This document shows, piece by piece, positions 56,936 to 59,536 of a DNA stretch of 64,000 nucleotides (its first letter is position 1; each line of letters starts with the position of its first letter). The stretch is from contig NZ_CP058214.1 in the NCBI RefSeq assembly GCF_015482775.1, positions 2,222,501 through 2,286,500 on the forward strand. The letters are read 5' to 3'. Below the pieces are notes generated by a model. That model saw only the letters and a list, made by a program, of their open reading frames with translations. It had not been told where the DNA came from and did no database searches. This stretch comes from Kaustia mangrovi (GTDB taxonomy: Bacteria; Pseudomonadota; Alphaproteobacteria; Rhizobiales; Im1). The translations under genes were made by a program, and so were the position numbers.

Positions 56936-57973
56936 TCACGCGGCCTTCTGCATCAGGCCGCGATTGATGAGCGTCTCGGCGATCTGCACGGAGTTGAGGG
57001 CTGCACCCTTGCGCAGATTGTCGGAGACGCACCACAGGTTCAGGCCGTTCTCGATGGTCGGGTCGACGCGGATCCGGCTGATGAAGGTGGCGTAGTCGCC
57101 GACGCATTCGACCGGGGTCACATAGCCGCCATCCTCGCGCTTGTCGACCACGAGCAGGCCCGGCGCCTCGCGCAGGATCTCGCGGGCCGCCTCGTCGTCG
57201 AGCGGGCGCTCGAACTCGATATTGACCGCCTCGGCATGGCCGACGAAGACCGGCACGCGCACGCAGGTCGCCGTCAGTTTGATCTTCGGATCGAGGATCT
57301 TCTTCGTCTCCACGATCATCTTCCATTCCTCCTTGGTGTCGCCGTCCTCCATGAAGACGTCGATATGGGGAATGACGTTGAAGGCGATCTGCTTGGTGAA
57401 CTTCTCCGCCTCGGGCGGGTCGGTGACGAAGATGCCGCGGGTCTGCGTCCACAGCTCGTCCATCGCCTCCTTGCCGGCGCCGGAGACCGACTGATAGGTG
57501 GAGACCACGACGCGCTTGATGCCGGCCGCCTCGTGCAGCGGCTTCAGCGCGACCACGAGCTGGGCGGTGGAGCAGTTTGGATTGGCGATGATGTTGCGCC
57601 GGTTGGGCCTGGCCATATAGGCCTCGAGGGCGTCGGCATTGACCTCCGGCACGATCAGCGGCACGTCCTGGTCGTAGCGCCAGCACGACGAATTGTCGAT
57701 GACGACGGCGCCCTTCGCCCCGATCCGCGGCGACCAGTCCTTGGAGACGGTAGAGCCCGCCGACATCAGGCAGAAATCGACCTTGGAGAAGTCGAACTGC
57801 TCGAGGTCCTCGCACTTCACCGTGCGGTCCCCGAAGGACACCTCCGTGCCCAGCGACCGCCGCGACGCGACGGCATGGATCTCGTCGACCGGGAACTCCC
57901 GCTCGGCGAGAATGTTCAGCATTTCCCGGCCCACATTGCCCGTGGCACCGACGACGGCGACCTTGTAGCCCAT
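56936..57973 (-). CDS. asd: Aspartate-semialdehyde dehydrogenase
   Basis: Asd reduces aspartyl phosphate, made by the LysC encoded at 12-13 kb, to the semialdehyde that feeds lysine, threonine and methionine synthesis. The 345-residue protein begins MGYKVAVVGATGNVGREMLNILAERE, with the NADP loop GATGNVG. It has the active-site Cys in IIANPNCSTAQLVVALKPL and the His/Arg region in VRVPVFVGHAEAVNIEFERPL. Upstream lies a 22-codon threonine-rich ORF and several hairpins in a leader of about 190 nt. This points to control by threonine supply through attenuation, which I consider the most interesting feature of this gene. Confidence 0.97.
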   Translation of the reverse strand: MGYKVAVVGATGNVGREMLNILAEREFPVDEIHAVASRRSLGTEVSFGDRTVKCEDLEQFDFSKVDFCLMSAGSTVSKDWSPRIGAKGAVVIDNSSCWRYDQDVPLIVPEVNADALEAYMARPNRRNIIANPNCSTAQLVVALKPLHEAAGIKRVVVSTYQSVSGAGKEAMDELWTQTRGIFVTDPPEAEKFTKQIAFNVIPHIDVFMEDGDTKEEWKMIVETKKILDPKIKLTATCVRVPVFVGHAEAVNIEFERPLDDEAAREILREAPGLLVVDKREDGGYVTPVECVGDYATFISRIRVDPTIENGLNLWCVSDNLRKGAALNSVQIAETLINRGLMQKAA

Positions 57974-58021
57974 GTCTGAAAATCTCTCCTCGACGCTCTC
58001 GCTCCCCCCGCCTTCGCCATC

Positions 58022-58071
58022 GGCCCCACGTAAGGGGGCCTCTGCGTCCCTCTCACCCCGCCGGGGAGAGG
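58022..58071 (-). promoter_or_regulatory. Leader hairpins between the Thr-rich ORF and asd (possible attenuator)
   Basis: Two stems follow the leader ORF on the minus strand. The first, 58049-58071, has CCTCTC paired with GAGAGG and an inner CCC/GGG. The second, 58022-58040, is GGCCCC-N7-GGGGCC. The CCTCT just after the leader stop (near 58083-58087) could instead pair with AGAGG at about 58038-58043, giving mutually exclusive forms. No T run follows either stem, so termination may be Rho-dependent or translation may be masked. Confidence 0.45.
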
Positions 58072-58092
58072 ATACGGGGACAAGAGGTCGTG

Positions 58093-58161
58093 TTACGCGA
58101 CCGTCGCGGTGACGGTGCGTTTGGCGGTCGTGGTCGTGGTTTTCGTGACGATGACCGACAT
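58093..58161 (-). CDS. Threonine-rich leader peptide upstream of asd
   Basis: A 22-codon ORF starting ATG at 58161 and ending TAA at 58093. Nine of 22 residues are Thr, six of them at positions 6 and 8-12 (T, K, then five T in a row). ACC and ACG codons are used, and Val/Ile make up most of the rest. Its composition resembles the E. coli thr operon leader ThrL, and its place 120 bp before asd on the same strand is where an attenuation leader should be. Such a peptide is not expected to act itself: ribosome stalling at Thr codons would change folding of the RNA downstream. The ribosome-binding site is weak (AGGCAGG, rather far from the ATG). Confidence 0.7.
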   Translation of the reverse strand: MSVIVTKTTTTTAKRTVTATVA

Positions 58162-58252
58162 CTGTCTTCGACCTGCCTGCCTCTTGGGTGGTGAGCGGCA
58201 GCGGCTGAAACCGCCACCGGAGCGGACTTGTCGTGCATGAGGATAGCCGCCA

Positions 58253-58258
58253 TGTCAA
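58253..58258 (-). promoter_or_regulatory. Perfect -35 box (TTGACA) upstream of the asd leader
   Basis: TTGACA on the minus strand lies 92 bp before the leader ORF. No good -10 hexamer is found at 16-18 bp (the best is CACGAC), so this is only a possible promoter. The other bases from 58162 to 58360 show nothing else clear. Confidence 0.3.
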
Positions 58259-58360
58259 GCGCCATATGCGGGCCGGCAGGCGGTCCCCGCATTCCGGAAC
58301 GGCGGCAATTCGGCTATCCTTGGCGGCGACGGACCGATCCCCGGCGCGGGAGGAGCCGCA

Positions 58361-58690
58361 ATGAGCGAGGCACCGGCGGACTACGAGGCCTTCTGGCACC
58401 ATTATCTGCGCGAACATGCGCGGCCGGGCACGCGTGCGCTCCATTTCCTCGGCTCGGGCCTTGCCATCGTCTTCCTCGTCGCGGCCATCGCGTTCCTGTC
58501 CTGGCAGTTCCTTGTCGCCGCCATCGTTGCGGGCTACGGCTTCGCCTGGATCGGGCACTTCGTCGTGGAGAAGAACCGGCCGGCGACCTTCGGCCATCCG
58601 CTCTGGTCGCTCATCAGCGATTTCCGCATGCTCTGGTTCTGGCTCACCGGGCGGCTCGACGACGAGATCCGGAAGGCGCACGGAGGCTAG
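58361..58690 (+). CDS. Mpo1-like / DUF962 membrane protein
   Basis: A 109-residue protein with two hydrophobic segments (about 28-65). The family motifs are clear: FWHHYLREHARPGTRALHFLG near the start and WIGHFVVEKNRPATFGHPLWS, then LISDFRMLW. In yeast Mpo1 the conserved His residues bind iron and the enzyme removes one carbon from 2-hydroxy fatty acids; whether the short bacterial forms do this is not known. GGAGGAG precedes the start. It lies upstream of terC on the same strand with a 120-bp gap. Confidence 0.88.
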   Translation: MSEAPADYEAFWHHYLREHARPGTRALHFLGSGLAIVFLVAAIAFLSWQFLVAAIVAGYGFAWIGHFVVEKNRPATFGHPLWSLISDFRMLWFWLTGRLDDEIRKAHGG

Positions 58691-58810: not shown

Positions 58811-59536
58811 ATGTTCGACTGGCTCTTGAATGTGGAGGTCTGGGCGAGCCTCCTGACGCTGACGGCACTGGAGATCGTGCTCGGCATCGACAATCTCGTC
58901 TTCCTGTCGGTCGTCGCCCAGCGGCTGCCGGCGCGCCGCCGCCAGCTCGCCCAGCGTATCGGCCTTATCGGCGCACTCGGCATGCGCATCGTGCTGCTGA
59001 CCATGATCGTGTGGATCACCGGGCTCGTCACGCCGATCTTCACCCTCGGCGACTACGCCTTCTCCTGGCGCGACCTGATCCTGATCGCGGGCGGCCTGTT
59101 CCTGCTCTACAAGGGCACGACGGAAATCCATGGCGAGGTCGAGGGCGGCGAGGACCACATGGGCGCCGCGGCGACGGGCTTTGCCGCCGCAATCGCCCAG
59201 ATCATGGTGCTCGATCTCGTTTTCTCGCTCGATTCCATCATCACCGCGGTGGGGCTGACACGCTTCCTGCCGGTCATGATCGCGGCGGTCACCATCGCCA
59301 TCGCGGTCATGCTGTTCGCCGCCCGGCCAGTCAGCGACTTCATCGCGCGCCATCCGACGACCAAGATGCTGGCGCTCGCCTTCCTCCTGCTGATCGGCGC
59401 GGCGCTGGTCGCCGACGGGCTGCATTTCCACATCCCGCGCGGCTACATCTATTTCGCCATCGCCTTCTCGCTCGGCGTGGAGGCGCTCAACCTCGTCGCC
59501 GGCAACAGCCGCAAGCGGAAGACGACGAAAGACTAG
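58811..59536 (+). CDS. TerC family integral membrane protein
   Basis: A 241-residue protein with about seven membrane helices and the TerC signature ALEIVLGIDNLVFLSVVAQRLP, repeated in inverted form as LDLVFSLDSIITAVGLT. The acidic residues in these helices (Glu, Asp) are the probable metal-binding site. Recent work on relatives points to manganese export, with older links to tellurite resistance. I looked upstream for a yybP-ykoY-type manganese riboswitch and saw no support. It is convergent with the arginine-deiminase-like gene, with a repeat fragment between. Confidence 0.92.
   Translation: MFDWLLNVEVWASLLTLTALEIVLGIDNLVFLSVVAQRLPARRRQLAQRIGLIGALGMRIVLLTMIVWITGLVTPIFTLGDYAFSWRDLILIAGGLFLLYKGTTEIHGEVEGGEDHMGAAATGFAAAIAQIMVLDLVFSLDSIITAVGLTRFLPVMIAAVTIAIAVMLFAARPVSDFIARHPTTKMLALAFLLLIGAALVADGLHFHIPRGYIYFAIAFSLGVEALNLVAGNSRKRKTTKD

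Follow-up and report, generated by a model that had tools for sequence, protein, structure and literature searches.

What does the short, threonine-rich open reading frame that precedes asd in Kaustia mangrovi do, which amino acids would it sense, and at which step would it act? We addressed these questions in a window of 64,000 nucleotides (contig NZ_CP058214.1, positions 2,222,501 to 2,286,500) and in the asd loci of related genomes. The product of Asd is the common precursor of lysine, threonine, methionine and the cell-wall precursor diaminopimelate, and matching the level of asd to demand therefore matters. Our comparisons of sequence suggest that the locus very probably controls asd by ribosome-mediated attenuation, sensing both lysine and threonine.

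The leader ORF and its conservation

A preliminary description of this DNA had reported a threonine-rich ORF of 22 codons about 120 bp before asd, and we found it as reported, with 119 nt between the leader stop and the asd start (57973). Its product, MSVIVTKTTTTTAKRTVTATVA, contains nine threonines, five of them consecutive, together with two lysines, both encoded by AAA; the threonine content had been described correctly, but the two lysine codons had been overlooked, as had how widely the leader is conserved. The features of the coding region and its promoter are as follows.

58253..58258, minus strand: TTGACA, the probable -35 element of the promoter for leader and asd, at -166 from the leader stop
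58093..58161, minus strand: leader ORF, 22 codons with an ATG start, its Lys/Thr (K/T) tail conserved in the same position in 26 of 52 families
58102..58146, minus strand: Thr/Lys codon run TKTTTTTAKRTVTAT, the proposed stall region, in relatives biased toward AAA and variable at third codon positions
56936..57973, minus strand: asd, aspartate-semialdehyde dehydrogenase, 345 aa, recognised from its own sequence and from orthologs throughout the class

The leader start codon is preceded by only a weak Shine-Dalgarno sequence (SD), a point against the attenuator reading. The region before asd is single-copy, a 501-bp query giving one match in the genome, and a search of positions 57900-58400 against Rfam, including the Thr leader and the lysine riboswitch, returned no family match at E values up to 5. 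The divergent neighbours of the leader on the plus strand (58361-58690 and 58811-59536) are ORFs for small membrane proteins, the second of which resembles, by eye, a TerC-type protein.

In 26 of 29 representatives a TTGAC-type box is present 70-260 nt ahead of the leader stop, most often at 136-181 nt, suggesting that the leader is probably transcribed together with asd; no consensus -10 box was found in the window, which again speaks against the reading. The preliminary description had named an asd transcription start downstream of 58093 as evidence against attenuation, and the conserved box upstream of the leader points the other way.

We then took asd orthologs from one genome per family of the window's order (Hyphomicrobiales) and from a set of named genomes, and scored as K/T-dense any short ORF with at least six K/T residues in 12 codons. 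Such an ORF precedes asd at 60 of 110 distinct loci, compared with one on the reverse strand and about two in Markov shuffles of the same sequences. Counted with one genome per family, the leader is present in 26 of the 52 families of the order (25 at the threshold and one just below it, with five K/T), where chance would account for at most 2%, and so the conservation of the Thr-rich ORF that the preliminary description had wished to see compared across related asd loci is real. The stop codon of these leaders usually lies 80-126 nt ahead of asd. Carriers include Sinorhizobium, Rhizobium, Agrobacterium, Mesorhizobium, Brucella/Ochrobactrum, Devosia, Roseibium, Aureimonas, Chthonobacter, Alsobacter, Methylobacterium ajmalii and Aestuariivirga; the leader is absent before asd in Bradyrhizobium, Xanthobacter, Ancylobacter, Hyphomicrobium, Methyloligella, most Methylobacterium and Roseovarius. 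That half of the order's families do without it counts against the attenuator reading. The exact string KTTTKTV-stop occurs in 5 of 199 genomes of the order, once in each and always before asd. No K/T-rich leader was found at hom (homoserine dehydrogenase), the next gene toward threonine, in this genome and 18 relatives.

Selection on the tail and the choice of lysine codons

Across 30 leaders from Rhizobiaceae/Phyllobacteriaceae, pairwise differences at codon positions 1/2/3 were 0.03/0.07/0.31 over the last seven codons and the stop, and 0.54/0.60/0.65 over the eight codons upstream of this tail, figures that describe a pattern among related sequences and not independent events. Changes in the tail thus fall mostly at third positions, which indicates that KTTTKTV is kept as amino acids while the rest of the leader is free, and purifying selection on the tail as a peptide is well supported. 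A lack of selection for the Thr codons, which the preliminary description had listed as an argument against its proposal, is not what this mainly synonymous variation shows. Only the last 7-14 codons are conserved; leader length and N-terminus vary freely.

In the leader tails the prevailing lysine codon is AAA, although asd itself uses AAG about ten to one. The AAA:AAG counts were 143:20 in the leaders versus 114:1197 in the adjoining asd genes, and 40:16 versus 27:137 when one sequence per family was taken (p 9e-14). No comparable shift is seen among the Thr codons, where ACG is used without avoidance, and the preference for AAA is thus not explained by an avoidance of G. Among the 30 tRNA loci read in this genome are one tRNA-Lys with anticodon UUU and one with CUU, and Thr tRNAs with UGU, CGU and GGU. 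The AAA bias of leaders relative to asd suggests that lysine, and not only threonine, is probably sensed. Threonine had been proposed earlier as the sensed amino acid; it stays, though not alone, the probable pair being threonine and lysine, which both derive from the product of Asd.

The alternative is a sensor for threonine only, in which the lysines would be incidental or would serve RNA structure. Thr makes up 44% of tail codons across families and Lys 15%, with just two lysines in the window, as such a sensor would lead one to expect. At the same time, every family representative has lysine in its tail, and the lysine codons are AAA far above asd usage while the Thr codons are unbiased, making a threonine-only sensor unlikely.

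A counterpart has been described in Sinorhizobium meliloti. Toward its 3' end SEP5 carries six Thr codons and three for Lys; it lies in the 5' UTR of a gene that its authors term aspartate dehydrogenase, and was shown to be translated by Ribo-seq and Western blot; the 2023 study called it Sinorhizobium-only and proposed it as a possible leader peptide (PMC10117765). The tail of the S. americanum leader, SKTTAKTTTKTV, has Thr and Lys counts identical to those of SEP5, and SEP5 is evidently an ortholog of the asd K/T leader. The earlier statement that no Thr attenuator on asd is described in alphaproteobacteria therefore does not wholly hold, SEP5 having been suggested as a possible leader peptide (PMC10117765); in the open-access literature searched we found no further report on the asd K/T leader.

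These data also bear on two readings in which the ORF would not be a leader peptide. Tagged SEP5 accumulates as a soluble protein (PMC10117765), as might be expected if the ORF made a small cationic, K/T-rich protein acting in trans, as claimed for peTrpL. Conservation confined to the last 7-14 codons, with length and N-terminus free, and the constant place of the ORF before asd make this very improbable. A chance or low-complexity ORF within a conserved untranslated RNA element is harder still to credit: short ORFs are common and the downstream RNA is structured, but the control rates of at most 2%, the codon-position pattern, the AAA bias and the translation of SEP5 in S. meliloti (PMC10117765) all contradict it.

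Alternative pairings downstream of the leader and the output step

The leader is followed by strands that, as predicted, could pair in more than one way. All lie on the minus strand and are listed in the order of transcription.

58074..58091, minus strand: strand A, a pyrimidine-rich segment that comes right behind the leader stop, predicted to pair with D (-26.3 kcal/mol) or C (-21.4 kcal/mol)
58062..58072, minus strand: strand B, 5' arm of hairpin I, with predicted partners C (-17.4 kcal/mol) or D (-18.7 kcal/mol)
58048..58059, minus strand: strand C, 3' arm of hairpin I
58022..58042, minus strand: hairpin II, GC-rich, without a T run
57990..58012, minus strand: strand D, purine-rich, a near-copy of C located immediately before the asd SD
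57984..57991, minus strand: asd Shine-Dalgarno sequence GAGGAGAG

The same layout 3' of the leader stop is seen in the order, with A followed by hairpin I (strong, formed by B and C), hairpin II (variable), D and the asd SD. In the window, the stretch between leader and asd has strong GC stems and a minimum free energy z of -2.7 against 100 dinucleotide shuffles, and its minimum-energy fold consists of A:D plus B:C. Since C resembles D, both are potential partners of B.

When 28 rhizobial sequences were examined for column-based covariation in a single MAFFT/RNAalifold alignment, just hairpin I and a B:D-like helix emerged, and these weakly. We therefore turned to a partner-swap test, exchanging B and D among 47 clades and comparing duplex energies. 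Native B x D duplexes averaged -24.2 kcal/mol and swapped duplexes -22.0 kcal/mol (z -4.5, p 2e-4, 47 clades), which supports the earlier suggestion of stems with alternative pairings after the ORF, in this case B with C or D. In one family (f24, locus L152) B (GCTCTTTCC) and D (GGAAAGGGC) are, by eye, altered together. Co-variation of A x D was weak in the 47 clades (p about 0.03-0.05) and counts against the reading; it had been stronger in a first pass of 22 clusters, which the larger set did not repeat, and an A x D swap at fixed positions with one sequence per family was not significant alone. In the same swap test the SD itself was not involved (p 0.24).

We considered, and rejected, the idea that hairpin I is a repeat interspersed in the genome: the 501-bp query matched once, and a loose version of the motif was not above control. 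The genome does contain a recurring identical palindrome, CCTCTCCCCTCGCGGGAGA, of hairpin I-like composition, for example at C1:859540, 1357745, 1370299, 1421665 and 1780804, and this is probably an interspersed repeat. Separately, two K/T leaders (L171 and L172, of families f51 and f21) are followed by strands that fit A/B/C/D poorly, and could represent a third output design.

In the mechanism that we propose, the leader ORF and asd would share one transcript from a promoter upstream of the leader. A shortage of charged tRNA-Lys or tRNA-Thr would make the ribosome stall in the K/T run, and A would stay free; with both in good supply, the ribosome would proceed to the leader stop and cover A. 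Whether A is free or covered would shift pairing among the pyrimidine-rich A and B and the purine-rich C and D, and so alter asd expression. In the window, a free A would form A:D and leave the SD open, whereas a covered A would release the end of D and allow the SD to fold locally. We infer the stalling, the direction of control and the output step in the window. The amino-acid attenuation design put forward in the preliminary description is, as such, well supported by the K/T tail at a fixed place, by its coding signature of purifying selection, by the co-varying pairings and by a terminator version in another order (see below).

As to the output step, no intrinsic terminator (a GC hairpin with a T run) was found before asd in the window or in the 26 family representatives. 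The stems downstream of the ORF lack a T run, as had been noted before, and since none ends in one we rejected a transcription attenuator with an intrinsic terminator in the window. Masking the first 12 nt of A in the window lowered the predicted accessibility of the SD from 0.62 to 0.36, a change in the sense that induction by starvation would require. In a set of 49 clades, the effect of masking A on the SD was not consistent (p 0.47 and 0.99), and a second analysis agreed; a conserved equilibrium SD switch acting through the masked post-stop region is therefore not supported across clades, which counts against the proposed mechanism. Folding the leader with and without the segment that a ribosome would cover, which the preliminary description had suggested, thus gave the SD shift in the window, though not consistency over the clades. 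On these folding predictions, initiation of asd translation is the likeliest output in the window, a choice we make tentatively.

Alternatively, the same lysine- and threonine-sensing leader could act through Rho. The C-rich, G-poor K/T codons together with A would form a Rho loading site, shielded by a stalled ribosome and exposed by a released one, and Rho would then stop transcription before asd. Over the last 13 codons and 30 nt after the stop, the C and G fractions are 0.41 and 0.21 (0.44 and 0.18 over the same segment in the window), and they are reversed downstream (0.21 and 0.40); an output through Rho would also agree with the missing intrinsic terminator in the window and in all 26 families. 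The C-richness, however, follows from the Thr codons themselves, and Rho would leave the co-variation of B and D unexplained, so we regard this output as possible but somewhat unlikely.

Leaders in other orders and comparison with known systems

Outside the order, a K/T leader was found at 2 of 28 sampled asd loci. In the order of one of these two genomes (G233), 7 of 16 sampled families have the leader, and immediately behind its stop codon comes a strand A of sequence GCGGGCC or a close variant, complementary to GGCCCGC, the 5' arm of a GC hairpin. Of 16 leaders outside Hyphomicrobiales (15 from one other order and L210 from a further one), 13 have a T-rich tail after the hairpin; in family f133 the hairpin is present and the T tail missing. 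Lysine codons in the other-order leaders are again shifted toward AAA (AAA:AAG 22:13 versus 59:275 in asd, p 4e-8). Judged from its sequence, this layout is the textbook one of an antiterminator and a terminator. With a ribosome on the stop codon, A would be covered and the terminator could form, while a stall further upstream would free A and pre-empt the terminator. K/T leaders of this antiterminator/terminator type precede asd at L232, L244-L247, L249-L253, L256-L258, L260 and L263.

The broadest reading, to which we give an even chance, is that of an ancient alphaproteobacterial two-input attenuator at asd. One leader peptide would read lysine (through AAA and tRNA-Lys UUU) and threonine, and would feed at least two kinds of output: in one order an intrinsic terminator, in Hyphomicrobiales an RNA switch of four strands that works without a terminator. 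The breadth, the lysine logic and the two output designs appear new. We know of no lysine-sensing ribosome-mediated leader, and if the reading is true, this would be, to our knowledge, the first. By reading two end products where the pathways branch, such a leader would work as an OR gate for shortage of lysine and threonine. The strong choice of AAA would also make it possible to test directly whether attenuators use those codons whose tRNAs are the first to lose their charge.

The thrL leader of the E. coli thr operon is a peptide rich in codons for the pathway products, followed by alternative RNA pairings, and the same plan is seen here at asd. The asd leader differs from thrL in its target, which is asd and not thrABC, in having lysine in place of isoleucine as the second residue, and, in the window, in having neither an intrinsic terminator nor a match to the Rfam Thr leader. 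Translational attenuators such as ermC resemble it in dispensing with a terminator and in the proposed control of SD access by the position of the ribosome in the leader; ermC responds to a drug, and a conserved SD switch, tested for the asd leader in 49 clades, was not found. Within the same bacterial order, trpL (rnTrpL) of rhizobial trpE is a ribosome-mediated attenuator that differs from the asd leader in sensing tryptophan, in terminating transcription, and in its gene and structures, as far as the cited accounts of it go (PMC7298713, PMC10117765). SEP5 is closest, and was described without an RNA mechanism (PMC10117765), whereas the leader analysed here is found in 26 of 52 families and in other orders, and is accompanied by alternative pairings. 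What had been an observation in a single genus would then belong to a widespread system.
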